Assembly (NCBI GenBank): GCA_022566735.1 | Contig: JADFIG010000017.1 | Location: 1 to 64,000 of the forward strand | Reading direction: 5' to 3' | Source of the DNA: Pseudomonadota bacterium | GTDB lineage: Bacteria > Pseudomonadota > Gammaproteobacteria > Burkholderiales > Burkholderiaceae_C | DNA: 64,000 nucleotides | In this document: piece after piece, positions 37,504-60,478 of the stretch | Layout of the letters: each line of letters opens with the position of its first letter | Numbering within the stretch: the first letter of the stretch is position 1 | Notes under the pieces: generated by a model | Database searches by the model: none | The model's input: the letters and a program-made list of their open reading frames with translations, nothing else | Told to the model about the DNA's origin: nothing | Position numbers and translations under genes: made by a program

Positions 37504-38715
37504 TTACTCGAAGGTGACGGGCGAGGTGTTGGAACCACGCTTGGCGGCGCTCAGGCTGTTGCCGAACAGGCCGTTCAGGTCCACGGTGCCCAGCTTGGCG
37601 TCGATGGCGTTGACCACGGCGGTGCCGTTGGCGGTGTGGCCGTACTTCTGCGAGGTGAACCAGAAGTCGTACTTGCCAGCCTTGGCGGAAGCGGTGCTCT
37701 TGCCAGCCACAGCTTCGTTGCCGTCGTAGGCGGCGACGCCGTTGATCTTGACATAGCGCCACTTGCGGTCAGCGCGCTGGCCGCCCGAGCGGGTGGTCAG
37801 GTCAGGGTAGTTTTCCAGCGACAGCACGCCGACGGCGTAACCAGCGTTGCTCAGGCAGGTGCGGGCGTTGCCGGTGCCAGCGCCTTCGGCGACTTCATAC
37901 GAGGGCAGGCCGGAGTCAGCACCGTAGGTGGCTTGGTCAGCCGGAGCCAGGGCACCGGCGGCGGCACCGTCACCACCGATGTAGGCGTTCAGGAAGTACT
38001 GGTTGGAGGAAGCCTGGGTGCCCGAGGTGGACACGCGGCGGCAAACGGTCAGCTTGTCGCCAGCGGCGCCCACGCCCAGGATGGCGTTGATGTCTTGCTT
38101 GGCGGTGTTGAAAGCGTCAGACACGATGGAGGTGTACTGGGCCTTGGTGATGCTGGGCTGGCAAGCCTGGGTCAGGCTGTCCACGCCGCAGCCGGTCAGG
38201 CCTTGGGCGGCTTGCAGGGCGGTGTACAGGTCGGGGCTGACGGCCACGCCGAACACTTGGCTGAAGGAAGCGGCGCTGGTGGCGGGAGCAGCCGACAGGC
38301 CGGCGTTGGCCAGTTCAGAGGCGGGGAAAGCGGCAGCGTCGATGTCCAGGAAGCCGCCTTCGGACTTGCGGGCAGCGGTCAGGGCGGTGTTGGGGTTGGC
38401 AGCGGCCACGTCCACGAACACGTCGGTGGCGTTGCCGGCCGAGGTGGTCACGGCGGTGAAGGAGCCGCCCGACACGTTGAAGGACACGGCGTCCACGCCG
38501 GGGATGCCGGTGAAGTTGACCGAGCACTTGACGGCGAACTTGTTGGTGTCAGAGGTGTTGGTGTAGGTGGTGGCGGTGCCGGAGCACAGCGAGGTCAGGG
38601 CCGAACGGTAGTTGGCCGAGGTGGCGGAAGCGCCGGCCAGGTACACGGTGGCGGCTTGGGCTTGGGCGGCGACCAGGGTCACGGCGGCGGCCAGGGCGAT
38701 CTTGGTGAATTGCAT
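37504..38715 (-). CDS. Secreted protein, paralogue of the protein at 21634-22986
   Basis: A 403-residue protein. ATG 38715 is chosen because GGAG lies 6-10 nt upstream; a TTG four codons earlier is unlikely. The signal peptide is MQFTKIALAAAVTLVAAQAQ (cleavage near A21). The mature part begins ATVYLAGASATSANYRSAL and resembles the overall layout of periplasmic binding-protein-like polypeptides, but no ligand motif is clear. It shares long conserved blocks with the protein at 21634-22986 (VFGVAVSPDLYTALQAAQG; QPSITKAQYTSIVSDAFNTA; CLSNAGYAVGVLSLENYPDL). Codon use is strongly biased to a few G/C-ending codons, suggesting high expression. Two hairpins follow the stop, then tpsB. Role unknown; the context suggests a surface or envelope partner. 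Confidence 0.85.
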   Translation of the reverse strand: MQFTKIALAAAVTLVAAQAQAATVYLAGASATSANYRSALTSLCSGTATTYTNTSDTNKFAVKCSVNFTGIPGVDAVSFNVSGGSFTAVTTSAGNATDVFVDVAAANPNTALTAARKSEGGFLDIDAAAFPASELANAGLSAAPATSAASFSQVFGVAVSPDLYTALQAAQGLTGCGVDSLTQACQPSITKAQYTSIVSDAFNTAKQDINAILGVGAAGDKLTVCRRVSTSGTQASSNQYFLNAYIGGDGAAAGALAPADQATYGADSGLPSYEVAEGAGTGNARTCLSNAGYAVGVLSLENYPDLTTRSGGQRADRKWRYVKINGVAAYDGNEAVAGKSTASAKAGKYDFWFTSQKYGHTANGTAVVNAIDAKLGTVDLNGLFGNSLSAAKRGSNTSPVTFE

Positions 38716-38774
38716 GGAGAGCTCCAAAGGGATGGGAGAGAGACAAAAAGGCGAAAGGGAACAGCTTCGACCCG

Positions 38775-38845: not shown

Positions 38846-39721
38846 TCAGGCGCGGCGGCGGCGGGCAACAGCACCGACCACAGCCAGACCGGAAACCAGC
38901 AGGGCGTAGGTGGTGGGCTCAGGCACTGCGGAAATGGTCAGCGTGCCGTTGGCGGCGCTCAGCGACACGACGTATTGCATTTCGAACTTGGCCTTGTTGC
39001 CGTCGACCACATACAGGGAAGCAGTGTTGGAGGCCAGGGTTTCACCGTTCAGGACGTTGTTGCTGCGCCATTCGTTGCCGAAAGCGTCGCCGGCCATGGC
39101 GTAGCCGTTGGCGCGGGTGGTGGCGCCGTCAGCAGCGGTGAAGGTGTAAGCGCCGTTGTTGGCAGCGTCAGCGGTGATGGTGCCCTTGTAGCCAGTGATC
39201 GTGCTTTGCAGAGGCGTGAAGATGTCGTTGGCCTTGCCACCTGCAATCGCTTGCAGGCCGGTAGCTTGGCTCGACAGGAACGAGTTGGTGTTGTGGGCAG
39301 TACCGGTCACGATGCTGCGCAGGTTGGCACCGAAGCCGACGGTGTCAAACGCGGTGACAACGAATTGCAGGTCAGCGGCGTCGGAATTGGCCAGCAGGGT
39401 GTTCCAGGCGGCGGTCCAGCTGTTGTTGCCGTAGGCGCTGGTGGTCACGCCATTGACCGTGATGGTGTTGGTGTTGAAGTTGAACTGGAGGGCAGAGTTC
39501 AGACCAGCCAGCGAGGTGGCTGCCACGCCCGTACCGTTGCCGGTGGCGCCGATCAGGTCGTCCATGGTCAGGCCCAGGTCGAACACGCCAGCGGTGGTGG
39601 TGCCGCCCAGCTTGTCATAGGCGATCATGACCAGGGAACCATTGCCACCGGTGGCGATGGCGGCGTTGGCGGTGCCAGCGGCGACCAGGGCCACGGCTGC
39701 GGCGATGTGTTGCAGTTTCAT
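38846..39721 (-). CDS. PEP-CTERM sorting domain protein, secreted
   Basis: A 291-residue protein with a signal peptide (MKLQHIAAAVALVAAGTANA) and the tripartite PEP-CTERM tail: VPEPTTYALLV, a hydrophobic helix, then RRRRA. This tail is the recognition signal of exosortase (EpsH/XrtA-type) processing, linked to exopolysaccharide-producing biofilm bacteria. The body (GNGSLVMIAYDKLGGTTTAG; NSWTAAWNTLLANSDAADLQ) is Thr/Asn/Gly-rich with no domain I recognise. GGAGAAAGCAAATG gives a strong ribosome site. No exosortase gene is in the window; an EpsA-like regulator is 1.2 kb upstream on the same strand. Confidence 0.93.
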   Translation of the reverse strand: MKLQHIAAAVALVAAGTANAAIATGGNGSLVMIAYDKLGGTTTAGVFDLGLTMDDLIGATGNGTGVAATSLAGLNSALQFNFNTNTITVNGVTTSAYGNNSWTAAWNTLLANSDAADLQFVVTAFDTVGFGANLRSIVTGTAHNTNSFLSSQATGLQAIAGGKANDIFTPLQSTITGYKGTITADAANNGAYTFTAADGATTRANGYAMAGDAFGNEWRSNNVLNGETLASNTASLYVVDGNKAKFEMQYVVSLSAANGTLTISAVPEPTTYALLVSGLAVVGAVARRRRA

Positions 39722-40953: not shown

Positions 40954-41781
40954 TCAGTAATGAGACTCGCTGAACTGCATGTGGGCCGAGCCCAGGGCGT
41001 TCATGGTCATGGCCTTGGCCACGGCCTGGGCGCGGTTGGCGGCGCCGAGCTTGCGCAGGATCTTCTGCACGTGGTTCTTGACGGTGAGCGCGCTGATGCC
41101 GAGCTTTTCGCTGATCTGCTGGTTGCTCAGGCCGTCGCGCACCCACAGCAGGATCTCGCGTTCGCGTTCGGTGATGGGGGTGGCGCGGGGCAGGCCCTGG
41201 CCGGCCACGATGAAGGAGGCGCTGCGGCCGGAGTCCATCTGGCGCTCGGTGACGCACACGCGCTGGTAGGCCATGTGCACGCAGGGCAGCAGCATGTCCA
41301 TGGCCTGCAGCGAGGCGTCGCCGTAGTCGGCGCGCGGCTGGGTGAACATGAAGAAGCTCTCCAGTTCGTCGGGGCGACCGGGACGGGTCAGGCCGTGCAG
41401 CAGGATCTGGTCGTAGCCCAGGTCGGTCAGGGCGGTGGTCAGGGGCTGGGGCAGCACGTCGCGCTGCAGGGAGAGCATCGCCGACTGGCCGCGGCCCTTG
41501 CGCCAGATGCTGAGGGCCGTCTGCATGACTTCCGAGCGCATGCTGCGCAGGCCCTGGAGCACGGACTCGGGCAGCGGGATGCTGTTGAAGATGTCGAAGA
41601 CGACGTCGCGCTGGTCGCGGTCATAGGAGCCGCAGATGCTGATCTTGTGGGGCAGCCAGCGCTGGAAGTCGCCCTGCGTCCAGACGAAGAACTGGTGGCG
41701 TCGACACACTTGCGGCGCGGCTTCGATGACGCGCAGCAGCACTTCCGACTGGTCGGGGGCGATGGAGGTGATCGACGTCAT
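40954..41781 (-). CDS. epsA: EpsA-like LuxR-family regulator of the PEP-CTERM/exopolysaccharide type
   Basis: A 275-residue transcription regulator. The N-terminal ~190 residues lack an autoinducer-domain signature and contain RRHQFFVWTQGDFQRWLPH, a start like that of EpsA regulators associated with XrtB/PEP-CTERM systems. The C-terminal LuxR helix-turn-helix is clear: ITEREREILLWVRDGLSNQQ and ISALTVKNHVQKILRKLGAA. It probably controls exopolysaccharide and PEP-CTERM genes, including the neighbour at 38846-39721. It is first in an operon with the ankyrin gene. A degenerate Pho-box-like repeat lies upstream at 41820-41838. Confidence 0.8.
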   Translation of the reverse strand: MTSITSIAPDQSEVLLRVIEAAPQVCRRHQFFVWTQGDFQRWLPHKISICGSYDRDQRDVVFDIFNSIPLPESVLQGLRSMRSEVMQTALSIWRKGRGQSAMLSLQRDVLPQPLTTALTDLGYDQILLHGLTRPGRPDELESFFMFTQPRADYGDASLQAMDMLLPCVHMAYQRVCVTERQMDSGRSASFIVAGQGLPRATPITEREREILLWVRDGLSNQQISEKLGISALTVKNHVQKILRKLGAANRAQAVAKAMTMNALGSAHMQFSESHY

Positions 41782-41819
41782 GATGCCAGGGGGTTGATAT
41801 GGTCAGTTTAGGTAGGCCG

Positions 41820-41838
41820 AATGACGATTTGTTGACGA
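41820..41838 (-). promoter_or_regulatory. Degenerate Pho-box-like direct repeat upstream of epsA
   Basis: On the minus strand TCGTCAACAAATCGTCATT has two TCGTCA units 11 bp apart with an A/T-rich centre, like the PhoB box layout, but both units deviate from CTGTCA in the first two bases. A TAAACT hexamer follows 9-10 bp later, about 40 bp upstream of the start. Weak by itself; more interesting because a much better box lies at 51811-51828. Confidence 0.35.
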
Positions 41839-41849
41839 AACTTCACGAA

Positions 41850-42365
41850 TCAGGGCCGGGCCGGGCTGTTGATGGCCGCGGCGGCGGGGGTCGATGCCGC
41901 GCCCTCGCCGCCTGGCGCCGCGCCTTCGGCGACCTCGAAGCGCCACTCGGCATAGGTGAGGGTGCCGACCGGCGCGAGCAGGGGCACTTTGCGGGAGCGG
42001 CTGAACACGCCGACGATGCCGCCGTTGGCGTCCTTGAGCAGGCCCCATTCGCGGCTGTTGGTGATGGGGTCGCGCCAGACGCGGCGCAGGTGGCGCACGA
42101 CCTGGCCGCTGCGGCGGTCTTCGAGCAGGTCTTCCAGGCGCGCGGGCGAGCGGCTGCTGCCCTGGCTGACGGGCACGGCGGCGTAGGCTTCGAGGGCGGT
42201 GCGGATCTGCTCGCCGCGGTACTTCAGCTCGGTGTCGCGCTCGCGGCGCGATTCCAGCAGCCAGGCGCGCGACAGGGCCATGAGCATGACGCCGCTGATG
42301 GCCACCCACAGCAGCACCGTCAGGTAGGTGAAGCCGCGGCTGCGGTGGGCCCTGCCCTGCCTCAT
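41850..42365 (-). CDS. Type II secretion/type IV pilus-like pseudopilin (third of the cluster)
   Basis: A 171-residue prepilin-like protein. ATG 42365 gives MRQGRAHRSRGFTYLTVLLW: a basic leader ending in Gly before Phe, the prepilin peptidase cleavage site, though the usual Glu at +5 is replaced (G|FTYLTVLLWVAISGVMLM). The soluble part includes LLESRRERDTELKYRGEQIR and WRDPITNSREWGLLKDANGG, typical of minor GspG/PulG-like pseudopilins. Last gene of the secretion operon. Missing Glu5 suggests a minor, tip-located subunit (inference). Confidence 0.8.
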   Translation of the reverse strand: MRQGRAHRSRGFTYLTVLLWVAISGVMLMALSRAWLLESRRERDTELKYRGEQIRTALEAYAAVPVSQGSSRSPARLEDLLEDRRSGQVVRHLRRVWRDPITNSREWGLLKDANGGIVGVFSRSRKVPLLAPVGTLTYAEWRFEVAEGAAPGGEGAASTPAAAAINSPARP

Positions 42366-42375
42366 CGCAGCGGCC

Positions 42376-42771
42376 TCACCAACTGCTGTAGGGCTGGCCG
42401 TCCTGGCCACGGCCGGCCGCGCCGCTGCGCACATCGGCCACGCGGCCCTGCATGGCGCTGCCGGGCTTGGGGCCCAGCATCTGCCAGCTGTCGCGGCGGC
42501 CGGTGAGCGGGTCTTCGGGGACCTGGCGCAGGTAGCCGCGGGTGACGAGCTCGTCGAGCGAATCGGGGTAGAGGCCGCGGTCGGCGGCGTACTTGTCGAT
42601 GGCGTCGCGCATGACGTTGAGCGAGGTCTTGAGCGTGGCCTCGCGGGCGTTGTCCACCGAGCGGAAGTAGCGCGGCGCGACCAGGCTGGCCAGCAGGGCC
42701 ACGATGGCCAGCACCACGATGAGCTCGATGAGGGTGAAGCCGCTGAGGCCGCGGCGGCGTGGGGTGTTCAT
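42376..42771 (-). CDS. GspG-like pseudopilin (second of the cluster)
   Basis: A 131-residue pseudopilin. Start ATG 42771 (MNTPRRRGLSGFTLIELIVV) gives an 11-residue leader and perfect cleavage site G|FTLIE with Glu5. The globular part has DAIDKYAADRGLYPDSLDEL and VPEDPLTGRRDSWQMLGPKP, the GspG/PulG layout. Lies 10 bp upstream of the last pseudopilin gene and directly downstream of the next one. Confidence 0.88.
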   Translation of the reverse strand: MNTPRRRGLSGFTLIELIVVLAIVALLASLVAPRYFRSVDNAREATLKTSLNVMRDAIDKYAADRGLYPDSLDELVTRGYLRQVPEDPLTGRRDSWQMLGPKPGSAMQGRVADVRSGAAGRGQDGQPYSSW

Positions 42772-42800
42772 GGCGGAGGTCATGGGCAAAGCGGCACGCA

Positions 42801-43451
42801 TCACCACTCGCGGTAAGGCACGCCGTCCAGGCCGGTGCCATCGGCACGCGAGTGGACATCGAACACATCGGCGCCCGGCGCGGGGGATTCGGGCGGGCTG
42901 GCGTAGCTGCGCAGGCCCCAGCTCTGGGCGGCGGGCACGGCCGGGTCGGCAAAGGGGTCGCGCGGGATGCGGCGCAGGAAATAGACCATGGTGCCGGGCT
43001 TGACCGCGCCGCCCAGGGCGCCTGCGGAGGCCGCGGTCGCCGGGGTGGGGGTGGCTTTGGGGTCGGTGGCCTTGGGGTCGGCGGCTTTGGTCGCTGCTGT
43101 GGCGGGTGTGGCTGCACCTGCCCCTGCCGCTGCCCCCGCGGCACCGGCCTTGCCCGGGGCCAGGCGGGGCACGCCCTTGACGAGCGCGTCCAGCGAGGGC
43201 GGGTAGCCGCTGTCATCGGGCCGCTTGGCGATCTCGCCGTCGTCGGCGGCCTTCTTGTAGGCGTCGATGGCGCGGCGCAGGGTGCGCAGCGACTCGCGCA
43301 GCTCGGCCTCCTGGCTGCGCCGCTTGTGCAGGGCCATCAGGGGCATGGCGGCGCTGGCCAGGATGCCCACGATCATCACCACCACCACCATCTCGATGAG
43401 GGTGAAGCCCCGCGGGCGGCGCGGGCCGGCGCGGCGCTCAGTGGAATTCAT
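42801..43451 (-). CDS. GspG-like pseudopilin with alanine/proline-rich insert (first of the cluster)
   Basis: A 216-residue pseudopilin. Start ATG 43451 (MNSTERRAGPRRPRG) gives leader and cleavage site G|FTLIEMVVVVMIVG. After RRAIDAYKKAADDGEIAKRP an unusual low-complexity linker of about 50 residues (Ala/Pro/Thr/Lys, with repeated ATPATAATKAADPKATDPKA) splits the globular domain before VYFLRRIPRDPFADPAVPAA. The start overlaps the gspD stop by 14 bp, so translation is coupled. Confidence 0.85.
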   Translation of the reverse strand: MNSTERRAGPRRPRGFTLIEMVVVVMIVGILASAAMPLMALHKRRSQEAELRESLRTLRRAIDAYKKAADDGEIAKRPDDSGYPPSLDALVKGVPRLAPGKAGAAGAAAGAGAATPATAATKAADPKATDPKATPTPATAASAGALGGAVKPGTMVYFLRRIPRDPFADPAVPAAQSWGLRSYASPPESPAPGADVFDVHSRADGTGLDGVPYREW

Positions 43452-45669
43452 TGCCACCGCCGCTGTCGATGATGGGCTGGGAGGGTGGTTCGACCTGGTT
43501 GGGGTCGCCATCGGCCGGGTCGGGCAAGGCGGGGTTGCGCACGCGCAGGCGCAGCGGCTCGCCGCCTTCCATGGCCACGGTGGTTTCGCTGAAGGACACG
43601 TCGGGCTTGGCGCGCAGCATCAGCGGCTTGCGGCCGCGCGGCGGCACGGTCACGGCGATGCGGCCGGACTCGCCACCGGCGGTGGTGATGTCGACGACGC
43701 TGGTGTCCACGGTGACGGTGGTGTTGAGGGGCTGGGCCGTGGGGTTGCTGACCATGACCTGGAAGGCCGCACCGGGCATGACCTCTTCCGGCCCGGTCAC
43801 GCCCAGCACCGGCGCACCCGCGGCGGCGGCGCGGCCGCTGTCCATGGGGCGCGGGCCCCCCGCGTTGCCCAGCGCGCTGCCGGCGGTGGGGATGACGGCG
43901 GAGGCGCTGTCGCGCAGGCGCATCGGCATGGCGCCGGGCTGCGACTCGGTGCCCGAGGGCGACATGGCGGTGGCCAGCGAGGGCTGCACCACGTTGCGCA
44001 CCACGCGCGGCGTGACCAGCAGGATGACCTCGGTCTTGTCGCGCGTGTCCTTGGTGGTGCCGAAGAGGCGGCCGGCGATCGGCAGCTCGTGCAGGCCGGG
44101 CACGCCGGCGGAGTTGCGGGTCTCGTTGTCGTTGATGAGGCCGGCGAGGATCTGGGTTTCGCCGTCGCGGATGCGCAGCGTGGTCGAGGCCTGGCGCGTG
44201 CCGATCTGGTAGGCCACGGAGCCCTGCGGGCCTTCGACCTGCTTGGTCACGCTGCTGACTTCGAGGGCGACCTTGATGGTGACGTCGTTGTCGAGTTGCA
44301 CCTGCGGCTCGACTTCGAGCTTGAGGCCGACGTCCAGGTAGTTCACCGAGGCCGACACGCCCACGTTGGCCGTGGAGGTGGTGGTGAAGACGGGCAGCTT
44401 CTCGCCCAGCAGGACCTTGGCCTTCTCGCGGTTGCGGGCGCGGATGGAGGGGTTGGCCAGCAGGTTGCTCAGGCCGCGCGAGCTCTTGAGCGTGGCGATG
44501 GCCGCCGGGTTGGCGGTGCTCCAGCGCAGGCCGCTGACCGAGGAGATGGCCGTGGCGCTGCCTGGGAGGCCGTAGTTGGCGACATCGGGCAGGCTCAGGC
44601 CGATTTCGTCGACCTTGCTGCTGGAGACTTCCATGACCTCCAGCTCCAGCACGACCTCGGCCTCGGCGACATCGAGGTTCTGGATGAGCCGGTCGATGAG
44701 GCGCACCACCTCGGGCGTGTCGCGCACGACCAGCAGGTTCAGGCGCTCGTCGATGAAGATGTCGCGCGTCTTGGCCACCGTGCGCACCAGGGTCTGGGCC
44801 TGCTTGGGGTCGGTGTTGGTGAGGAAGTAGCTCTTGGTGACCGTCTCCAGCACGTCGCGCTGCTTTTGCTGCGTGGACGGGAAGACGAGCACGGTGTTGT
44901 CGTTGAGCAGGCGGTAGCCGAGCTGCTGGGTGCTGAGGATGACGCGCAGGGCCTCGTCGACCGAGAGGTTGCGCAGGAAGACCGTGGTCTTGGTGTCGCC
45001 GCGCACGTCCTTGTCGAAGACGAAATTGAGGTTGGCGGCGCGGGCCAGGGCCTCGAAGACGCTCTTGAGCGGGGCTTCGCGGAACTCCAGCGTGACGGGC
45101 TTGGTGCCGACGGCCAGCGTCTGGGTGGCCTGGCTGCGGGCCTGGCTGGCGCGGACCTCCTCGACCCGGGCCAGCAGGGCGCGGGCGCGCGCGTTGCCGG
45201 GCTCTTCGCCCAGCAGGTCGCGCAGGGTGGCTTCGGCGCGCTCGTAGGTCTTGGCCTCGACGGCGGCCTGGGCCTCCTTGAACAGGCGCACGCGGCGCTG
45301 CAGGCGCTCGACCTCGGCGCGCAGGGCCTGGGTGCGCGGGTGCTGCGGCGCGGCCTGGGCCATGCGGCTGACGGCGCGCTTGAATTCGTCGGTCTGGCCG
45401 GCGTCGCGGGCGGCCGTGGCCTGGGCCGAGAGCGCGGCCACGGCGCGGTCCTGCTCGCGGATGAGGGCCAGGCGCAGGGTGCGGTCGTCGGGGCGCTCCT
45501 TGAGGGCGCCTTGCAGGCGCTCGACGGCGGATTCGTGCTGCCCGCCGCGCGACAGCATCTCGGCTTCTTCGATGGCCGCGGGGCTGGCGCAGGCGCCCAG
45601 CAGCAGGCTCAGGGCCAGGCTGGCACACAGCAGGCGCGTGCGTTGGAGTTTGAACGGGCTCATGGTCAT
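43438..45669 (-). CDS. gspD: GspD/PulD-like secretin with C-terminal cohesin-like extension
   Basis: Outer-membrane secretin, 743 residues. ATG 45669 overlaps the previous stop (ATGA). The lipobox LGAC puts the lipidated cysteine at residue 27. Residues ~35-150 are a TPR-like helical part (HESAVERLQGALKERPDDRT). Ring-building N domains follow (VTLEFREAPLKSVFEALARA; YFLTNTDPKQAQTLVRTVAK). The secretin core has LLANPSIRARNREKAKVLLG, YLDVGLKLEVEPQVQLDNDV and GLHELPIAGRLFGTTKDTRD. After about residue 610 an extra beta domain (VLGVTGPEEVMPGAAFQVMV) resembles cohesin-like modules seen in some secretins. TPR plus secretin plus cohesin is the plan of type II-like systems distinct from classic GspD. 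Confidence 0.93.
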   Translation of the reverse strand: MTMSPFKLQRTRLLCASLALSLLLGACASPAAIEEAEMLSRGGQHESAVERLQGALKERPDDRTLRLALIREQDRAVAALSAQATAARDAGQTDEFKRAVSRMAQAAPQHPRTQALRAEVERLQRRVRLFKEAQAAVEAKTYERAEATLRDLLGEEPGNARARALLARVEEVRASQARSQATQTLAVGTKPVTLEFREAPLKSVFEALARAANLNFVFDKDVRGDTKTTVFLRNLSVDEALRVILSTQQLGYRLLNDNTVLVFPSTQQKQRDVLETVTKSYFLTNTDPKQAQTLVRTVAKTRDIFIDERLNLLVVRDTPEVVRLIDRLIQNLDVAEAEVVLELEVMEVSSSKVDEIGLSLPDVANYGLPGSATAISSVSGLRWSTANPAAIATLKSSRGLSNLLANPSIRARNREKAKVLLGEKLPVFTTTSTANVGVSASVNYLDVGLKLEVEPQVQLDNDVTIKVALEVSSVTKQVEGPQGSVAYQIGTRQASTTLRIRDGETQILAGLINDNETRNSAGVPGLHELPIAGRLFGTTKDTRDKTEVILLVTPRVVRNVVQPSLATAMSPSGTESQPGAMPMRLRDSASAVIPTAGSALGNAGGPRPMDSGRAAAAGAPVLGVTGPEEVMPGAAFQVMVSNPTAQPLNTTVTVDTSVVDITTAGGESGRIAVTVPPRGRKPLMLRAKPDVSFSETTVAMEGGEPLRLRVRNPALPDPADGDPNQVEPPSQPIIDSGGGNEFH

Positions 45670-46394
45670 TTCATCGAGACGGTCTGGCTTTGCTGCAGGG
45701 GCAGGTAGGTCAGGCTCATGGATCGGTCCTGGATGCGGTCGACGCGCCACTGGCCTTCGATGACATCGCCTTCCTTGACCACCCAGGTGGCCACGGGACC
45801 GGCGAGCACGGCGCGCTGGATGGGACGTGCGACGCGCACAGGGGCTGAGGCGGCAGATGCGGCGGCAGAAGCCGCGCTCGCCGCGGGGGTGGCGGCAGGC
45901 GCTTGGGCGGCCGCGGCGCTCACGGTCTCGTCGTTGACGCGACCGATCCATGCGTGCGGGAAGCGCGGGGCCATGGGCGGCGGTGGCGGCGGCGCGGCCG
46001 CCACCTTGACGGGCGGCGGCGGCGGCGGGGCCATCGAGGCCCAGGCGGAAGGGGCCGCCTTTGTCATCGGGCGGGGTGGCGGCAAGGCTTCGGACTCTGC
46101 CGTTCTGAGGCGCCAAGCCTGGACGCCCTCGCTCAAAGCGGCATCGGTCCAGGGCGCGGCGGCAAGTGCAACGCCGGATGCGGCACGGGCGGCAGGCGCG
46201 GGGCGGTCGCTGCGCTCGCCACGGCGGGCGGTGTCGGTCGAGGGGCCGTTCGAGGGGCCAGCGCGGTCGCGCGAGCGGTCCCGGCCGCCGCGCTGGTCGG
46301 AAGCGGCCAGCTCGACGCCATCGTCTTGCTGCATGGCGGCCCAGCCGGCACCGAGCACGGCCACCGCCAGGGCGATCTTCAAAGCTGCACGCAT
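45666..46394 (-). CDS. GspC/PilP-like inner-membrane component of the secretion operon
   Basis: A 242-residue protein with one N-terminal membrane segment (MRAALKIALAVAVLGAGWAA), a long low-complexity Pro/Ala linker (MAPPPPPPVKVAAAPPPPPP) and a small C-terminal domain with FPHAWIGRVNDETVSA and WVVKEGDVIEGQWRVDRIQD. That layout and its place just before the secretin fit a GspC- or PilP-like protein linking the inner-membrane platform to GspD. It starts 1 bp after the preceding stop and its stop overlaps the gspD start. Function inferred from position and plan. Confidence 0.7.
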   Translation of the reverse strand: MRAALKIALAVAVLGAGWAAMQQDDGVELAASDQRGGRDRSRDRAGPSNGPSTDTARRGERSDRPAPAARAASGVALAAAPWTDAALSEGVQAWRLRTAESEALPPPRPMTKAAPSAWASMAPPPPPPVKVAAAPPPPPPMAPRFPHAWIGRVNDETVSAAAAQAPAATPAASAASAAASAASAPVRVARPIQRAVLAGPVATWVVKEGDVIEGQWRVDRIQDRSMSLTYLPLQQSQTVSMK

Positions 46395-46395
46395 C

Positions 46396-47025
46396 TCAAT
46401 GCCCCCTGTCCTGACGCCACCACAGCGACACGCTGACCTGGGCCTTGACCTGGTCGCTCATGGGGTCGGCGCGCTGGATGTCGAGCGCGTCGATGCTCAG
46501 CGCGGGCTGGCGCAGCAAGGCGTCGATCCAGGTGCGCAAGGCGGGGTAGCTGGTCTGCACGGGCAGCACCATGCGCTGGCGCCACAGGCCCTGCGCGCTG
46601 CCTGGGCTGCCTGGGTTGCCGCTTGGTGCCGGGGCCTTGTCCAGCCAGTTCTCGAACTCGCCACGCAGTTGCACCGAGCCCAGCGCGATGCCCGCATCGG
46701 CGGCGGACTGCAGCACACCGCGCTGCAGCGCCAGGCGGGCGGCGGCATCGGGCAGGCCCTCCCACAGCACGGCCCAGACGGCGCGCGGGCCGGCGCGGGG
46801 GTCCACACCACCCGCGGCAGCGGACGCGGCGCTGGCGGACGCGGCGGCGGCATCGGCACGGGCCTGCAGCTCGTGGCGCAGGCGGCGTGCCTCGGATTCG
46901 GTGCGCTGCACCTGCTCTTGCTGCGCGGGCAGCCAGGCGCGCTCCAGCCAGGCCACGCCCAGCAGGCAGGCCAGGCCGACCAGCCCGGGCCAGCCCAGGC
47001 GCTTGAGCCACAGCAGCGCGTTCAT
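46396..47025 (-). CDS. GspM/PilO-like inner-membrane component
   Basis: A 209-residue protein with an N-terminal membrane helix (WPGLVGLACLLGVAWLERAW), a coiled coil (QVQRTESEARRLRHELQARA) and a C-terminal ferredoxin-like half ending QVKAQVSVSLWWRQDRGH. This is the plan of PilO/GspM. ATG 47025 overlaps the upstream stop at 47022 (ATGA), so translation is coupled. It probably pairs with the preceding PilN-like protein. Confidence 0.72.
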   Translation of the reverse strand: MNALLWLKRLGWPGLVGLACLLGVAWLERAWLPAQQEQVQRTESEARRLRHELQARADAAAASASAASAAAGGVDPRAGPRAVWAVLWEGLPDAAARLALQRGVLQSAADAGIALGSVQLRGEFENWLDKAPAPSGNPGSPGSAQGLWRQRMVLPVQTSYPALRTWIDALLRQPALSIDALDIQRADPMSDQVKAQVSVSLWWRQDRGH

Positions 47026-47660
47026 GGCATGCCTCCGGTGGTGACGACGTCGGCGCGCCAGGCGTAGTTGCCCTGCGCCGTGGCGAAGGGGGCGCTCAGG
47101 GGCTCGCGGGCACGCAGCATGGCTTGCGGGCCCAGCGCCTCCAGCCATTGCAGGGCGGCGTTGTCGTCGATGACGGCGGCCTGCAGCTTGAGCTCGGGCT
47201 GCACGCCTTCGTTGCTGGCCAGGGTGGAGAGGTCCAGGCTGAAGCGCAGCAGCACGGCGTGTTGCTTGAGGGAGGCGGCGTCGACGTGGTCGAGCGTGTC
47301 GGACCAGGGGTGGCCCAGCCACTGGGCCAGTTGCGCGGCGTGGCGCCAGCCTTCGCCGCCGAGCTCGGGCGCGGTGGCGGCGCGGGCCTCCTGTGCCGCC
47401 GATGCGGCCTGGGCCTGCACGCTGAGCTGGCGGTCGCCACGCTGCAGGCGCTTGACCACGGCCTGGGCCTCGGCCAGCTCGTCCTGCACGGCAGCGGCGC
47501 GGTCGGCGCCATGCAGGCAGGCCACGACGCCCAGGGCCAGCAGCGCCCAGCCCCAGAAGCTGGTGCGCACGCGGGGGCCCAGGAAGTTCAGGCCTTCGGC
47601 CCAGCCGGGCTGGCGGCGCGCCGCGCTGGTGGATGTGGGCAGACTCATCATGCGGCTCAT
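47022..47660 (-). CDS. PilN/GspL C-terminal-like inner-membrane component
   Basis: A 212-residue protein. A basic cytoplasmic start (ATG 47660, MSRMMSLPTSTSAARRQPGW) precedes one membrane helix (SFWGWALLALGVVACLHGAD) and a coiled coil (VQDELAEAQAVVKRLQRGDR). A periplasmic part follows with FSLDLSTLASNEGVQPELKL. This matches PilN or the C-terminal half of GspL. Start and stop overlap both neighbours by the ATGA motif. Confidence 0.68.
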   Translation of the reverse strand: MSRMMSLPTSTSAARRQPGWAEGLNFLGPRVRTSFWGWALLALGVVACLHGADRAAAVQDELAEAQAVVKRLQRGDRQLSVQAQAASAAQEARAATAPELGGEGWRHAAQLAQWLGHPWSDTLDHVDAASLKQHAVLLRFSLDLSTLASNEGVQPELKLQAAVIDDNAALQWLEALGPQAMLRAREPLSAPFATAQGNYAWRADVVTTGGMP

Positions 47661-48484
47661 GCGGCCACCTCCGCGTTCAGCGTCCACGCCAGGGCCCCGA
47701 CGGCATCGGCATCGGCTGCCGGGCTCAGCGTGTGCAGCAGCTCGGGCAGCGGCAGCGCCGGGTCCGCGACCTCGCCAGGCACGCCCGGCACACCGTCAGG
47801 GACCACCTCGGACCACACCCGCACCAGCACCCAGCGGCCCTCGCGCACGGCGGCCTGGGCCTGGGTGAGCAGGCCGGGCTCGGACCAGGCCCACTGGCGC
47901 AGGCTGCCTTCGGGCTGGGTCGCGGCGGGGGTGTCTTGCTGCAGGGTGTCCCAGGCCCGCTGCAGGCCCTCGGCCCACCAGGGCAGGGCCGCCTGCAGGC
48001 TCAGGCCGCGCTCGCGGGCGACCTCGCGCAGGCCGGCGATCAGGGCCCGCGGCACGGCGCAGACCAGCTTGACCTCGCCATGCACCAGCTCGACCAGTTG
48101 CCAGTCGGCAGCGATCTGCTCGGGCTCGATGCCGAAGTAATGCGCCCATTGCTGGGCGGCCAGCTCGCGGGCCTGGGCCGCGCTGGTGGCTTCGGGGGTG
48201 GCGCAGCACAGCAGCCAGCGGCTGGAGAGCTGCACCGCCACGTGCACGCCTTCGTGCGCATCGGCCCAGGCATCGAAGGCGTCCAGCGCGGTGTCGATGG
48301 CCGCGGCCTCGCCCGGCAGGTGGGGCGGGGCCAGCAGGGCCACGTCCAGCGGCCGCCAGGTGCTGCGCAGGCGGGCCTGCAGGCGGCGCCATTGGCGCGA
48401 GGCCAGGGCCTGCCAGCCGCCCGCCGCAGGGCCGGTGGACACGTCGGTGGCGGGGTGGGTGGGGGGAACTGCTTGCACCGCCAT
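47657..48484 (-). CDS. PilM/GspL cytoplasmic-domain-like protein of the secretion operon
   Basis: A 275-residue soluble protein (start ATG 48484; GGAG precedes it, formed by the end of gspE). It has no membrane segment. Its place between the ATPase gene and the PilN-like gene suggests a PilM-like, actin-fold-related cytoplasmic scaffold, but the canonical nucleotide-binding motifs of PilM are not visible and similarity is weak. Recognisable stretches include VHVAVQLSSRWLLCCATPEA and LVHGEVKLVCAVPRALIAGL. Call rests mainly on gene order. Confidence 0.55.
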   Translation of the reverse strand: MAVQAVPPTHPATDVSTGPAAGGWQALASRQWRRLQARLRSTWRPLDVALLAPPHLPGEAAAIDTALDAFDAWADAHEGVHVAVQLSSRWLLCCATPEATSAAQARELAAQQWAHYFGIEPEQIAADWQLVELVHGEVKLVCAVPRALIAGLREVARERGLSLQAALPWWAEGLQRAWDTLQQDTPAATQPEGSLRQWAWSEPGLLTQAQAAVREGRWVLVRVWSEVVPDGVPGVPGEVADPALPLPELLHTLSPAADADAVGALAWTLNAEVAA

Positions 48485-48486
48485 GC

Positions 48487-50076
48487 TCACTCCGCCAGCG
48501 TCACGCGGTTGAGTTCTTCCAGGGTGGATTCGCCGCGCTGCACACAGGCCAGGGCCGATTCGCGCAGCAGGCGGGTGCCACTGGCGCGGGCGTGGGCCTT
48601 GATCTTGATGAGCGAGGCGCGGGTGACGATGAGGTCGCGCAGGGTGTCGTCCATGAGCAGGATTTCGGAGATGGCCTTGCGGCCGCGGTAGCCGGTGTCG
48701 CGGCAGTGCGCGCAGCCGACCGCCTTGAAGAAGGTGCCGTGGGTGTCCAGCGGCAGCTGGGCGAGGCGCAGGTCGGAGGCCGAGGGCTGCCAGGGCACGG
48801 CGCAGTGCGTGCACAGCTTGCGCATCAGGCGCTGGGCCACGACGCCGTTGAGCGCCGACACCATGTTGTAGAGGTCCACGCCCATGTGCATGAAGCGGCC
48901 GACCACGTCGAAGACGTTGTTGGCGTGGATGGTGGACAGCACCAGGTGGCCCGTGAGCGCGGCTTGCGAGGCGATCTGGGCCGTCTCGGCATCGCGGATT
49001 TCACCGACCATGACGCGGTCCGGGTCGTGGCGCAGGATGCTGCGCAGGCCGCGGGCAAAGGTCAGGCCCTTCTTCTCGTTGACGGGGATCTGCACCACGC
49101 CGCCGAGCTGGTACTCGACCGGGTCTTCGATGGTGATGATCTTGTCGTCGCCGGTGTTGATCTCCTGCACCACGGCGTACAGCGTCGTCGTCTTGCCGCT
49201 GCCGGTCGGGCCGGTCACCAGCAGCATGCCGTAGGGCTTGCTGGCCAGGCGGCGCACCACGTCGGCATCGTCGGCATCGAAGCCCAGGCCTTCCAGGCTG
49301 AGCGCGGCGGACTCTTCCGACAGGCGCGAGCGGTCCAGGATGCGCAGCACGGCGTCTTCGCCAAAGCTGCTGGGCATGATGGAGACGCGGAAGTCGACCT
49401 CGCGCACCCCGCTGTCGGCCGACTGCTGCACGCGCAGCTTGAAGCGGCCGTCTTGCGGCAGGCGCCGCTCGCCGATGTCGAGCTCGGCCATCACCTTCAG
49501 GCGCGAGACCAGCTGCTCGGCCACCTCGCGCGAGCCGACATCGCCCACGTGCACCATCACGCCGTCCAGGCGGTGGCGGATGACCATGCCGGTGGCGGTC
49601 GATTCCAGGTGCAGGTCGCTGGCCTGGGCCTTGAGCGCATCGAACAGCGTGGCGTCCAGCAGGCGCACGACCTGGCTGCTTTCGCGCGCGATGGTGTCGA
49701 CCGACAGGGCATGGACCTCGGCGCCCCCCTCGGCACCACCGCCCTCGCCTTCGGCCTGGAGCAGCGTGCCGCGGGCCTCGAAAGCCTGCTCGCCCTGGGC
49801 CAGCCACAGCGCCAGGGTGTCGTCGTCGATGTGGCGCCAGCGCAGCGGCTGGGCCACGGCCCGGCCCACGGCCTCGCGCAGCAGCACGTCCTCGGGCTGG
49901 GGGCTCAGGGCCCACAGCTGCTGGGCGGCATCGCGGACCACGACCACGCGCAGGCGCAAGGCGCGCGCCAGCGGCCAGATGCGCCAGTCGGGCGTCCAGT
50001 CGAGCACGCCCTCGATCGGGGTGACCTTGGTGGATGGGTGGGCGGGTTGGCCGCTGGCCTGGAGTTGGGCGCTCAT
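48487..50076 (-). CDS. gspE: GspE/PilB-family secretion ATPase
   Basis: A 529-residue cytoplasmic hexameric ATPase that powers pseudopilus assembly. The N-terminal ~150 residues are divergent. The core has LFDALKAQASDLHLESTATG, the Walker A GPTGSGKTTTLYAV, Asp box region IITIEDPVEYQL, Walker B region LRSILRHDPDRVMVGEIRD and His box LTGHLVLSTIHANN. A zinc-binding tetracysteine follows (CTHC ... CAHC), as in GspE. ATG 50076 lies 10 bp downstream of gspF. All catalytic motifs are intact. Confidence 0.96.
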   Translation of the reverse strand: MSAQLQASGQPAHPSTKVTPIEGVLDWTPDWRIWPLARALRLRVVVVRDAAQQLWALSPQPEDVLLREAVGRAVAQPLRWRHIDDDTLALWLAQGEQAFEARGTLLQAEGEGGGAEGGAEVHALSVDTIARESSQVVRLLDATLFDALKAQASDLHLESTATGMVIRHRLDGVMVHVGDVGSREVAEQLVSRLKVMAELDIGERRLPQDGRFKLRVQQSADSGVREVDFRVSIMPSSFGEDAVLRILDRSRLSEESAALSLEGLGFDADDADVVRRLASKPYGMLLVTGPTGSGKTTTLYAVVQEINTGDDKIITIEDPVEYQLGGVVQIPVNEKKGLTFARGLRSILRHDPDRVMVGEIRDAETAQIASQAALTGHLVLSTIHANNVFDVVGRFMHMGVDLYNMVSALNGVVAQRLMRKLCTHCAVPWQPSASDLRLAQLPLDTHGTFFKAVGCAHCRDTGYRGRKAISEILLMDDTLRDLIVTRASLIKIKAHARASGTRLLRESALACVQRGESTLEELNRVTLAE

Positions 50077-50086
50077 CGTGTGTGCC

Positions 50087-51229
50087 TCACTGGATCTGGT
50101 CGGCCACCTGGAAGATGGGCAGGTACATCAGGACCACGATGGCGCCGATCAGCACACCCATGATCAGCATGAGCGCCGGGCTCACCACCTTGCCGACCCA
50201 CTCGGTGAAGCGGGCCAGCTCCTCGTCGTAGAAGGTGGCGGCGCGGTCCAGCATGGGGCCGAGCTCGCCGGACTGTTCGCCCACGCGCATCATGCGCACC
50301 GACACGGGCGTGGTCAGGTGATGGCGCTGCAGCGCGTCCGACAGGCGCGCGCCTTCGCGGACACGGCGCGTGGCCTGCATCAGCGAGGGGCGCAGCGAGG
50401 GCCCGACGAGCTCCAGCGAGGCTTCCAGCGCCGGCACCACGGCCACGCCGGCCTGCAGCAGCAGGCCCAGGGTGCGGTAGAGCGAGGCCAGCTCGATGAG
50501 GCGCAGGCGCGGGCCGATGACGGGCGTGCGCCACAGGCGCTCGGACACCGCCGCGCGCACCACCGGCGCCTTCCAGGCCGACACCGCCGCCGCCACCAGC
50601 GCCACCAGGCCGCCGATGGCCAGCCAGGGGTGGTCGCCCACGCCCTTGCCGATGGTCAGCAGCACGGCCGAGGCCCAGGGCATCTCGCCGCCCATGCCCT
50701 CGTAGATGTCGGCAAAGCGCGGCACCACGAACACCGTCAGGAAGCTGATGACGATCAGGCTGGCGCCGATCAGGATGGCCGGGTAGATGGCCGCGCTGAC
50801 CAGCTGGTCGCGCAGGCCCGTCAACCAGGCCAGGTAGGCCGCGTGCTGGCGCAGGGCCTGGGCGGTCTGGCCGGTGCGCTGGCTGGCTTCGATGGAGGCG
50901 ATCAGCAGCGAGCTGAAGGACTGCGGCTGCTGGCGCATGGCCTGCGACAGGGTGCGGCCTTCGGAGAGGTCCGTCGTCAGGGAGGCCAGCACGCGCGCCA
51001 CCTCGGGCGACTCTTCCTTTTCGCGCAGCGTCGTCAGCGCTTCGTACAGCGGGATGCCTGCGTCCAGCAGCACGGCCAGCTCCTGGCAGAACAGGCGGCG
51101 CGGGAACTCGGTGCGCCCACGCGAGACCTGCTGGCCCTGCAGGCGCGTGATCAGTCCCTGCAGCCCCTGGGCCGGTGCGGCAGCGGCACGGCGGGAGCGG
51201 GGGACAGGGCGGGCATGGGCACGGCTCAT
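50087..51229 (-). CDS. gspF: GspF/PilC-family inner-membrane platform protein
   Basis: A 380-residue polytopic protein with the two tandem GspF domains (residues ~40-165 and ~245-370). The first has FCQELAVLLDAGIPLYEALT and the second LYRTLGLLLQAGVAVVPALE with MMRVGEQSGELGPMLDRAAT. Membrane helices are at about AILIGASLIVISFLTVFVVP, WLAIGGLVALVAAAVSAW and VSPALMLIMGVLIGAIVVLM. It anchors the ATPase and feeds pseudopilins. Starts 3 bp after the gspG stop. Confidence 0.95.
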   Translation of the reverse strand: MSRAHARPVPRSRRAAAAPAQGLQGLITRLQGQQVSRGRTEFPRRLFCQELAVLLDAGIPLYEALTTLREKEESPEVARVLASLTTDLSEGRTLSQAMRQQPQSFSSLLIASIEASQRTGQTAQALRQHAAYLAWLTGLRDQLVSAAIYPAILIGASLIVISFLTVFVVPRFADIYEGMGGEMPWASAVLLTIGKGVGDHPWLAIGGLVALVAAAVSAWKAPVVRAAVSERLWRTPVIGPRLRLIELASLYRTLGLLLQAGVAVVPALEASLELVGPSLRPSLMQATRRVREGARLSDALQRHHLTTPVSVRMMRVGEQSGELGPMLDRAATFYDEELARFTEWVGKVVSPALMLIMGVLIGAIVVLMYLPIFQVADQIQ

Positions 51230-51232
51230 GGC

Positions 51233-51742
51233 TCACCAGTTGGTGATGTCCTGGTCTTCGCCGTCACCGCCTTCGCGGCCGTCCTTGCCCAGCGAATAGA
51301 GGTCGTAATCGCCGTGCTCGCCCGGCGCCTTGTACTGGTACTCGCGGCCCCACGGGTCCTTGGGCACCGCCTTGCGCAGGTAAGGGCCCCACCAGCGGGA
51401 CTCGTCGGCCGGCTTGACCCACAGCGAGGCCAGGCCCTGCTCGGTGCTGGGGTAGTGGCCGGTGTCCAGGCGGTATTGGTCGAGCGCCTTGCCCAGGCCA
51501 TCGAGCTGGGCCGTGGCCGTCTTGGCTTCCGATTTGCCGATCTGCTTGAAGAACTGCGGCCCCACATAGCCCGCCAGCAGGCCGATGATGACCAGCACCA
51601 CCAGCAGCTCCAGCAGGGTGAAGCCGCGCTGGGCGCGGGGGGCCACGGCGGCCTGGATGTCGGCGGGGGCGGCGGGTGCAGCAGAAACAGCAGGGACGAG
51701 TTCAACCCGCACCTGGCTGCGAGGCGCTCGGCAAATGTTCAT
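51233..51742 (-). CDS. gspG: Major pseudopilin GspG with an unusually long leader
   Basis: A 169-residue major pseudopilin, first gene of the secretion operon. The cleavage site G|FTLLELLVVLVIIGLLAG is canonical with Glu5. The globular domain has DQYRLDTGHYPSTEQGLASL, WGPYLRKAVPKDPWGREYQY and a calcium-loop-type end (GDYDLYSLGKDGREGGDGED), all typical of GspG. The leader before the cleavage site is about 40 residues (MNICRAPRSQVRVELVPAVS...) instead of the usual 6-15. GGAAGG lies 12 nt before ATG 51742. A Pho box is 70 bp upstream. Confidence 0.95.
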   Translation of the reverse strand: MNICRAPRSQVRVELVPAVSAAPAAPADIQAAVAPRAQRGFTLLELLVVLVIIGLLAGYVGPQFFKQIGKSEAKTATAQLDGLGKALDQYRLDTGHYPSTEQGLASLWVKPADESRWWGPYLRKAVPKDPWGREYQYKAPGEHGDYDLYSLGKDGREGGDGEDQDITNW

Positions 51743-51793
51743 CGGGGGAGATCCTTCCAACGCCGGGCCAGGCCTGGCGACGCATTGGCCGTG

Positions 51794-51828
51794 ATCCTAT
51801 TGGGCTATCCCTGACAGCTTTGTGACAG
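51794..51828 (-). promoter_or_regulatory. Pho box and -10 element driving the secretion operon
   Basis: On the minus strand CTGTCACAAAGCTGTCAG (51828-51811) has two exact CTGTCA units 11 bp apart around AAAG, matching the PhoB consensus CTGTCAT-AAA-T/A-CTGTCAC closely. Eleven bases later comes TAGGAT (51799-51794), a -10-like hexamer. That spacing is the normal one for PhoB-activated promoters, where the box replaces the -35. Transcription would start near 51787, 45 bp before gspG. Confidence 0.78.
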
Positions 51829-51848
51829 GGGGCGCGGCCTCCCCCTGT
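51825..51848. repeat. GC-rich inverted repeat next to the Pho box
   Basis: ACAGGGGG and CCCCCTGT form a perfect 8-bp stem with an 8-nt loop, overlapping the edge of the Pho box and lying about 80 bp upstream of the phosphodiesterase start. There is no U-run on either side and no gene ends here, so it is not a terminator; it may be an operator for the divergent gene. Confidence 0.35.
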
Positions 51849-51925
51849 TCACGCAGGCGACACACGGCCTGCCTAGCCTGCACAACACAACACAACGCCG
51901 TCCCCCGGCACAAGGAGCCCTCGAC

Positions 51926-53107
51926 ATGACCACGCCCCTCCTCACCTCGCTGACCGCCCTCGCCCTGGCCGCCGCTGCCAGCCTGGCCCAGGCCCACGAC
52001 GGCCACGGCGACCGCGAGCAAGCCGCCTCGGCCGGCCCCATCGTCATCGGCCACCGCGGCGCGTCGGGCTATGTGCCCGAGCACACCCTGGCCTCGTACT
52101 GGCTGGCCATCGAGCAGGGCGCCGACTACGTCGAGCCGGACCTGGTCTCCACCAAGGACGGCGTGCTGGTGGCCCGCCACGAGAACGCCATCGCCATCCT
52201 CAACGCCGATGGCAGCATCCGCGAAGCCACCACCGACGTGGCCGAGCGCCCCGAGTTCGCCGACCGCAAGGTCACCAAGCTGATCGACGGCGTGAGCGTC
52301 ACCGGCTGGTTCACCGAAGACTTCACCCTGGCCGAGCTCAAGACCCTGCGCGCCAAGGAGCGCCTGCCCGCGCTGCGCACGGCCAACACCCGCTTCGACC
52401 GCATGTTCGAGGTGCCGACCTTCGACGAGGTGCTGCAACTGGTGGCCCAGGCCAACGAGCGCCGCCGCCAGCAGGCCCTGGCCGAGGGAGGCCCCAGGGC
52501 CGCCGCCCACGTCAAGCCCATCGGCGTCTACCCCGAGACCAAGCACCCCAGCTACTTCGACGGCATCAACCTGTCGCTGGAAGAGCCCCTGCTCAGGAGC
52601 CTGCGCCGCCACGGCTACCACGGCCCGAACGCCGCGGTGTTCATCCAGTCCTTCGAGGTGGGCAACCTCAAGGCCCTGGCCACCCGGACCCGCCTGCCGC
52701 TGATCCAGCTGCTCAACGGCTCGGGCCAGCCCTATGACTTCACCGTGGCCGGCGACAAGCGCACCTACGCCGACCTGGCCAAGCCCGAAGGCCTGAAGGA
52801 AATCGCCACCTACGCCGTGGGCGTGGGCGCCAACACCAACCTGATGATCCCGCTGGTCGGCGGCAAGCTGGGCACACCCACCACGCTGGTGAGCGACGCG
52901 CACGCCGCGGGCCTGAAGGTGCACGGCTGGACCTTCCGCGCCGAAAACAACTTCCTGCCCAACGAGTTCGACAGCAGCGCCAACCCGGCCGAGCTGGGCA
53001 ACCTGGCCGGCCAGGTCAAGGCCTTCCTGGGCCTGGGCATGGACGGCTTCTTCACCGACCACCCCTTCCTGGGCCGCCAGGCCCGCGACGCCTTCGTGGC
53101 GAAGTGA
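51926..53107 (+). CDS. glpQ: Secreted glycerophosphodiester phosphodiesterase
   Basis: Hydrolyses glycerophosphodiesters to an alcohol and glycerol-3-phosphate, a source of phosphate and carbon. The 393-residue protein has a signal peptide (LTALALAAAASLAQA, cleavage near residue 23). Active-site motifs are VIGHRGASGYVPEHTLASY (catalytic His and Arg), DYVEPDLVSTKDGVLVARHE (metal ligands and second His) and, late, HGWTFRAENNF. The length fits the periplasmic GlpQ type. AAGGAG lies ahead of the ATG. It is divergent from the Pho-box-driven secretion operon, which fits a phosphate-starvation role. It might be exported by that system, but that is inference. Confidence 0.93.
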   Translation: MTTPLLTSLTALALAAAASLAQAHDGHGDREQAASAGPIVIGHRGASGYVPEHTLASYWLAIEQGADYVEPDLVSTKDGVLVARHENAIAILNADGSIREATTDVAERPEFADRKVTKLIDGVSVTGWFTEDFTLAELKTLRAKERLPALRTANTRFDRMFEVPTFDEVLQLVAQANERRRQQALAEGGPRAAAHVKPIGVYPETKHPSYFDGINLSLEEPLLRSLRRHGYHGPNAAVFIQSFEVGNLKALATRTRLPLIQLLNGSGQPYDFTVAGDKRTYADLAKPEGLKEIATYAVGVGANTNLMIPLVGGKLGTPTTLVSDAHAAGLKVHGWTFRAENNFLPNEFDSSANPAELGNLAGQVKAFLGLGMDGFFTDHPFLGRQARDAFVAK

Positions 53108-59400: not shown

Positions 59401-59420
59401 CACCCCGAAGGAGCCGCCCC

Positions 59421-59942: not shown

Positions 59943-59971
59943 CCCCCTCCACGCTGCACCCCACCCGGCCC

Positions 59972-60475: not shown

Positions 60476-60478
60476 ACG

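Follow-up and report, generated by a model that had tools for sequence, protein, structure and literature searches.

A conserved Pho-type promoter element in front of a type II-like secretion operon in an Aquabacterium-related bacterium

The intergenic stretch 51743-51925 of the window—the whole 64,000 nucleotides of DNA that were analysed—separates gspG on the minus strand from a glycerophosphodiester phosphodiesterase (GDPD) gene on the plus strand and carries a Pho box, CTGTCACAAAGCTGTCAG (51811..51828, minus strand), that faces gspG. Sequence comparison confirms this box as a real conserved promoter element of the Pho type aimed at gspG, and it is quite probably PhoB that controls the promoter of the gspG operon. 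What is observed directly is the sequence of the element, its conservation, its match to pstS promoters, the gene order and the neighbours. By analogy, the whole locus may be a new form of a known phosphate-starvation secretion and surface module, resembling the Pseudomonas hxc-pdt locus. A phosphate-type box kept across most of a freshwater genus suggests surface remodelling and phosphate scavenging via an unusual variant of a secretion system.

The Pho-type promoter of gspG

The box consists of two 7-bp direct repeats with a 4-bp spacer and matches CTGTCATN4CTGTCAT at 12 of the 14 fixed positions, with two mismatches. It sits directly before the -10 element TAGGAT (51794..51799, minus strand), in place of a -35 element, with a gap of 11 nt as against 10 nt in pstS promoters. 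Among relatives, this -10 element is mostly kept as (A/G)ATAGGATCA. The start of gspG at 51742 fits, with a conserved AAGGAT preceding the ATG—an alternative TTG start lies at 51760. Within the window, CTGTCACAAAGCTGTCAG is the sole site with at most three mismatches to CTGTCATN4CTGTCAT; shuffled windows average 3.1 such sites, and the consensus match alone is therefore no better than chance. Hence, the pattern by itself proves nothing, and the plain consensus search of the 64-kb window was set aside as evidence that is uninformative alone.

A weight matrix was trained on 29 Aquabacterium pstS promoter sites, 28 of them distinct. For this, 30 pstS loci were read, 29 of which carry a box of the form CTGTCATN4CTGTCAT 10 nt before TA—with at most five mismatches, box and -10 element counted jointly, and about 145-160 nt upstream of the matched region. 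The better pstS boxes read CTGTCATN4CYGTCAC, followed by TACAGT. As the training sites were chosen with the CTGTCAT consensus, the matrix is partly dependent on it. With this matrix, CTGTCACAAAGCTGTCAG scores 9.28 and ranks first in the 64-kb window, followed at rank 2 by the box of an epsA-like gene with 8.94. Outside the gspG and epsA boxes, three sites of at least 6.0 were found in 1,001,632 strand positions of related loci (L069-L095), the top one at 7.3; from this background count, the epsA boxes were excluded by motif.

In GspF searches, A. commune and two further records match at 90-91% identity, so that the genome belongs to Aquabacterium or lies close to it. The related set comprises 27 loci (L069-L095) with GspF identities of 65-91%, from records named Aquabacterium or at a higher rank. 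The sequence-only reading had expected the box to be conserved among relatives, and 26 of the 27 related loci keep it on the gspG side at up to three mismatches. The exception is L092, where no box upstream of gspG is present at this threshold; L094 carries the box without the -10 element. Matrix scores reach at least 3 in 24 of the 27 loci, those below being L082 (2.7), L091 (2.5) and L092 (-4.8). The gspG-side site ranks first to third in each of the 27 loci, L092 included. As the L092 site ranks second in its own locus even at -4.8, a rank within so short a sequence has little power as a test, and it is the score that counts. On the genome level, 28 of 42 genus genomes contain a single copy of a 35-bp promoter pattern, and the reversed pattern is found in 0 of 42. 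GspF is present in 32 of these genomes, and the pattern is found in 28 of the 32 with GspF and in none of the 10 without it. The first rank with the matrix, the conservation in 26/27 loci and the single occurrence of the 35-bp pattern in 28/42 genomes together lift CTGTCACAAAGCTGTCAG above chance. Position, rank and conservation thereby bear out what had been read from the sequence: a near-consensus Pho box directed at gspG, with 11-bp spacing to TAGGAT.

The divergent gene (51926..53107, plus strand) encodes a secreted glycerophosphodiester phosphodiesterase, as had been claimed, with a PF03009 match and a signal peptide recognized by eye. Glycerophosphodiester phosphodiesterases are a classical kind of Pho-regulon gene, and 12 of the 26 box-bearing loci have a whole phosphodiesterase gene in the divergent position. 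The box might then serve the phosphodiesterase, its orientation toward gspG being accidental and the phosphodiesterase alone being phosphate-controlled—a reading that we consider highly improbable. No GDPD match was found in 13 of the 26 box-bearing loci, two of which (L083 and L081) have less than 1 kb of upstream sequence. In L073, the match next to gspG covers only a C-terminal part of the phosphodiesterase, and the Pho box is intact. The box also persists in loci with UPF0227 or some other gene in the divergent position; being kept without an adjoining phosphodiesterase, it belongs to gspG. Box, spacing and TAGGATCA are all retained in the gspG direction, and in view of this conservation we rejected a role of the box confined to the phosphodiesterase.

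Furthermore, the phosphodiesterase has a weaker conserved box of its own. This weak Pho-like box, TGTTCACGCAGGCGACAC (51846..51863, plus strand), faces the phosphodiesterase 10 nt before TAGCCT (51874-51879). The corresponding motif—TCAY N5 GACACAY, 10 nt before a TAGNCT-like element—is present in 11 of the 12 relatives with a whole divergent GDPD, where its matrix scores are low (-1.7 to 2.9); it was not found in L093, the remaining one.

The secretion operon and the surface genes behind it

All genes of the operon lie on the minus strand. GspG, the major pseudopilin (51233..51742), matches TIGR01710 with 181 bits at a cut-off of 89. It is followed by a GspF-like inner-membrane protein (50087..51229; PF00482), under the GspF equivalog cut-off, and a GspE-like ATPase (48487..50076; PF00437, 421 bits), under the GspE equivalog cut-off. 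The next genes encode an M-like protein, probably the N-terminal half of a GspL-like protein (47657..48484; model pLDDT 80), and an N-like protein (47022..47660), which is assigned by gene order and by its fusion with M and has no significant Pfam match. A PilO/GspM-like protein (46396..47025; PilO 3jc8 at E 2.8e-8, GspM 1uv7 at 0.024; model pLDDT 88) precedes a proline-rich P/C-like protein (45666..46394) with one N-terminal hydrophobic stretch by eye and no Pfam match. The secretin (43438..45669; PF00263, STN, TPR) has a TPR-containing N-terminal part and a lipobox by eye, making it a predicted lipoprotein; by pattern, the lipobox is found in 24 of 24 related loci that reach the secretin. 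The operon continues with minor pseudopilin 1 (42801..43511; PF07963), minor pseudopilin 2 (42376..42807), which shows a prepilin motif by eye and a GspG-like N-terminus by DNA match, and a conserved minor pseudopilin-like ORF 3 (41850..42434; no Pfam match).

Secretin, ATPase and platform protein match PF00263, PF00437 and PF00482 but stay below the cut-offs of TIGR02517, TIGR02533 and TIGR02120. Comparison supports the earlier description of the operon as type II-like. The description as PilMNOP-like and structurally different applies to the O protein, given its PilO profile match. M and N are separate here, but 10 of 25 relatives have them joined in a single GspL-like protein. The difference from T2SS is therefore a matter of degree. 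M and N look like a GspL split in two. Profile searches with the M and P proteins returned no significant relative. The same gene order, G-F-E-...-D-pseudopilin, is also seen in Thauera, Aromatoleum, Hydrogenophaga, Roseateles and others; outside the genus, M, N, O and P are often too diverged to match. Judged from these sequences, the machine appears to be a divergent T2SS-like system rather than a canonical T2SS.

The operon is followed by an epsA-like gene (40954..41781, minus strand) for a LuxR regulator, probably of the XrtB/PEP-CTERM-associated family, with 169.8 bits to TIGR03020, just under the cut-off of 170. Upstream of this gene, the second Pho box, TCGTCAACAAATCGTCAT (41821..41838, minus strand), is placed 10 nt before TAAACT (41805-41810). 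The motif of this box is found in 23 of 23 related loci that reach that far; 20 of the 23 score at least 3, the others 0.7, -3.8 and 0.7, at a background of 0.0026 expected sites scoring at least 3 per 200-bp window.

The surface genes, likewise on the minus strand, were compared with six relatives. A PEP-CTERM protein (38846..39721; PF07589) has matches in five of them, and the sixth, L278, carries a gene with a PEP-CTERM-like tail in the same place. Present in 6/6 are a secreted protein with no family assigned (37504..38718; no Pfam, NCBIfam or PDB match), TpsB of the ShlB/FhaC family (35734..37401; PF03865), the giant TpsA of 3916 aa (23941..35691; PF05860, PF12545), as judged by matches to its first 400 aa, and a DUF2341-LamG-ExbB fusion (19801..21507). 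Beside this fusion lies the first ExbD (19392..19799), and a second ExbD (18983..19384) comes before a TonB-like gene (18286..18981; PF13103, 27.7 bits at a cut-off of 22) and a putative porin of the Porin_5 family (16530..18266; PF16930, 500 bits). The sequence stretches of most of the six relatives stop before TonB and porin. No notable Pho site was seen upstream of the TPS genes. A coiled-coil-like protein is also encoded in the stretch 15875-37401 (minus strand), together with the TPS, ExbB/ExbD, TonB and Porin_5 genes. A 407-aa protein was considered as a DING/PstS relative and rejected, the PDB profile search being without a match.

From these observations, we infer PhoB binding, induction, secretion activity and any cargo. 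When phosphate runs short, the two repeats at 51811-51828 would be occupied by phospho-PhoB, which would replace a -35 element, and the gspG-F-E-M-N-O-P-D-pseudopilin operon would start from TAGGAT. A second PhoB promoter would turn on the epsA-like gene—located between the operon and the surface genes—and the divergent phosphodiesterase would have its own weaker box. The whole locus would act as a phosphate-starvation surface and secretion module like hxc-pdt, with the T2SS-like machine replacing Hxc.

PhoB and candidate Pho sites within and beyond the genus

Tandem repeats of this sort are general for OmpR-type regulators, and the element might be a real conserved promoter that is read by an OmpR-type regulator other than PhoB. 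In line with this, the assembly, which is 89% complete, yielded no PhoB over the cut-off (best profile hit 203.9 bits, cut-off 296.2); the OmpR-type hits below that cut-off number seven. We nevertheless regard another regulator as unlikely: the form of the box equals that of the pstS promoters, PhoB is over the cut-off in 38 of 42 genus genomes, and it is over the cut-off beside gspG in L100, L110, L112, L127 and L147. The absent PhoB was also weighed as proof against control by PhoB. The searches of this assembly found neither PhoU nor the main, high-scoring PstS, and in relatives a distance of about 4 kb separates pstS from phoB; a single assembly gap could therefore explain the missing PhoB. 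G047 (93% complete) counts the other way, as it has the promoter, no PhoB hit and only a weaker PstS. A pstS match exists in 40 of 42 genus genomes.

In support of PhoB, promoters of this form also precede other phosphate genes of this genome. The plain consensus at three mismatches yields 102 sites in the whole genome versus 31 with the reversed pattern and is uninformative alone; an extended pattern yields 32 versus 16, and 18 of these sites were read. Three of the 18 lie upstream of PhoD, PhoX and a PEP-CTERM protein, with matrix scores of 14.3, 19.6 and 17.7. Further read sites precede a PEP-CTERM protein followed by a 5'-nucleotidase (5.4) and a second phosphodiesterase (1.6). The sixth of these read sites, with a score of 8.5, lies before a second T2SS-like operon of the same genome (contig C43, L209:1490-12832), the first gene of which ends in a PEP-CTERM-like tail. 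High scorers without an obvious phosphate gene behind them occur as well in this genome, namely L183 (20.7; no gene seen) and L179 (16.9). The genome holds 18 PEP-CTERM matches, two of them behind read Pho sites by a count made post hoc. At L211:1996-4293, a 765-aa secreted protein with a weak match to CehA/McbA metallohydrolases is divergent from a PEP-CTERM gene, and Pho sites of 4.4 and 17.7 point in both directions.

For the genus genome G013, the extended pattern gives 41 sites versus 26 with the reversed pattern. Among the 19 that were read, one lies before pstS and others before PhoX, two polyphosphate kinases and phnC (by eye). The best G013 site (L246, 30.6) has no obvious phosphate gene. 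This site and that of L179/L181 in the own genome (16.9) are very strong Pho-like sites between genes that by eye are M14-type peptidase and LdcA-like genes.

Beyond the genus, 51 of 53 loci (L096-L148) were examined against a small phosphate-gene panel. A phosphate gene—phoB, phoX, 5'-nucleotidase or PstS—lies within about 6 kb upstream of gspG in 10 of the 51. The other 41 have no panel phosphate gene near gspG, nine of these having less than 6.1 kb upstream. The divergent neighbour of gspG in L127 and L147 is phoB itself (331 and 326 bits), and Pho sites point towards both genes. In these two loci, phoB is followed by genes for short secreted proteins; by pattern, one of those in L127 ends in a PEP-CTERM-like tail. 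L100, L102, L107, L110 and L112 encode a PhoB-type regulator upstream of gspG and in the same orientation, with a PstS-like gene divergent from the regulator. The PhoB scan gave 307 bits for L100, 293 for L102, 313 for L110 and 313 for L112 at the cut-off of 296, so that PhoB is over the curated cut-off in five of six scanned loci; PstS is over its cut-off in both loci scanned for it (L102 and L112). Near gspG, L135 has PhoX and L096 a 5'-nucleotidase, and L111 has PhoX and a phosphodiesterase (L111:6599-7852) that carries its own PEP-CTERM tail near the T2SS-like operon. Sites that face gspG with scores of 6.6-14.4 are found in L099, L111, L112, L127 and L147; a site of 12.3 in L117 points away from gspG. 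The Thauera and Aromatoleum loci have no box at three mismatches. It would seem that an older machine has come under Pho control in Burkholderiales.

Relation to known systems and possible cargo

The Hxc parallel drawn in the sequence-only reading extends further than was claimed, as TPS, ExbB-ExbD-TonB and porin genes follow the operon. According to the available parts of the sources cited here and below, the genes behind the hxc T2SS of P. aeruginosa are lapA, pdtA, phdA, pdtB, exbB2-exbD2-tonB4 and the putative porin PA0696 (PMC7035377, PMC2729926). TPS, ExbB-ExbD-TonB and a putative porin thus adjoin the operon in both systems, an agreement in gene kinds. The predicted lipoprotein secretin has its counterpart in HxcQ, a liposecretin (PMC2996285). 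Hxc proteins of P. aeruginosa increase at low phosphate (PMC9769906), as the phosphate-type promoter would predict for the machine here. In P. fluorescens SBW25, hxcR is not Pi-regulated, though its cargo is (PMC2225411). Unlike in Hxc, GspL often appears to be split here, the O protein fits PilO best, and the T2SS equivalog cut-offs are not reached by D, E and F. In addition, tpsB comes before tpsA, ExbD is encoded twice, and an EpsA-like regulator and a PEP-CTERM protein lie within the locus, in which VreA-VreI-VreR genes were not noticed. No LapA-type phosphatase lies directly beside the operon, its divergent neighbour being GDPD here and GDPD or another gene in relatives.

A T2SS is also tied to a phosphate-starvation surface lipoprotein, ElpS, in Caulobacter crescentus; that system has the full 12 T2SS genes and belongs to another bacterial class, and the accessible part of the article contains no TPS or PEP-CTERM link (PMC2996285). 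For MYXO-CTERM with myxosortase and GlyGly-CTERM with rhombosortase, the tag, a membrane protease and the T2SS are held to cooperate in surface placement (PMC11980579, PMC3237569). PEP-CTERM, in contrast, pairs with exosortase, and here a T2SS-like exporter is suggested only by neighbourhood and shared promoters. With the PEP-CTERM/exosortase system, the locus shares an EpsA-like regulator and PEP-CTERM proteins; the control described for that system is a sigma-54 site with PrsK-PrsR, whereas phosphate control is not mentioned in the portion of the article at hand (Haft 2006, PMC1569441). In Table 2 of the same article, type II secretion protein E is the 34th best profile match. An article on Aquincola states that PepA probably reaches the periplasm through type II secretion (PMC9850573). 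Among the matches listed, no literature was found on phosphate control of a T2SS-like system in Burkholderiales—in a Herbaspirillum phosphate paper (PMC8222739), type II secretion is named in the references only, as far as its available text goes—and none on a T2SS for PEP-CTERM proteins, the nearest being PMC1569441 and PMC9850573.

What the machine carries can be read in several ways. Phosphatases are a plausible cargo by analogy, fitting the Hxc parallel and some neighbours. The operon might also be phosphate-controlled and yet form an adhesive or surface filament or export matrix proteins instead of phosphatases, so that starvation would lead to a biofilm or surface change. An epsA-like gene, a PEP-CTERM protein and a giant TpsA in the same locus speak for this, as does the fact that phosphatases are not constant neighbours. 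The equivalog match of GspG to the T2SS pseudopilin and the presence of PhoX, 5'-nucleotidase or GDPD near gspG in L096, L111 and L135 point the other way, and we hold this reading to be a serious but somewhat less than even possibility.

To our knowledge, the route of PEP-CTERM/exosortase proteins across the outer membrane is not established. PEP-CTERM proteins as cargo are a bolder guess than phosphatases; this guess fits the EpsA-like gene, the neighbours and the C-terminal tags that use a T2SS (PMC11980579, PMC3237569, as far as available). A simple pattern finds an ORF with a PEP-CTERM-like tail in 23 of 80 loci, a count without a background rate. More speculatively still, and with a rather low probability, the machine might be the outer-membrane exporter of exosortase-processed PEP-CTERM proteins in Burkholderiales, with PhoB activating exporter, EpsA and tagged cargo jointly and with some of the cargo being tagged phosphate-scavenging enzymes such as the L111 phosphodiesterase.

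Aquabacterium inhabits biofilms and oligotrophic water, in which phosphate is frequently in short supply. If control of the gspG operon by PhoB holds, the phosphate-starvation secretion and surface module of Pseudomonas would recur in Burkholderiales with another central machine. This would connect phosphate sensing, in a testable way, with a T2SS-like exporter and with PEP-CTERM/exosortase proteins.

As a minor observation, genes at 59083-61165 of the window, about 7 kb from the phosphate-type promoter, look by eye like arsR and like genes for an ArsI-like lyase, arsenate reductase and aquaporin.
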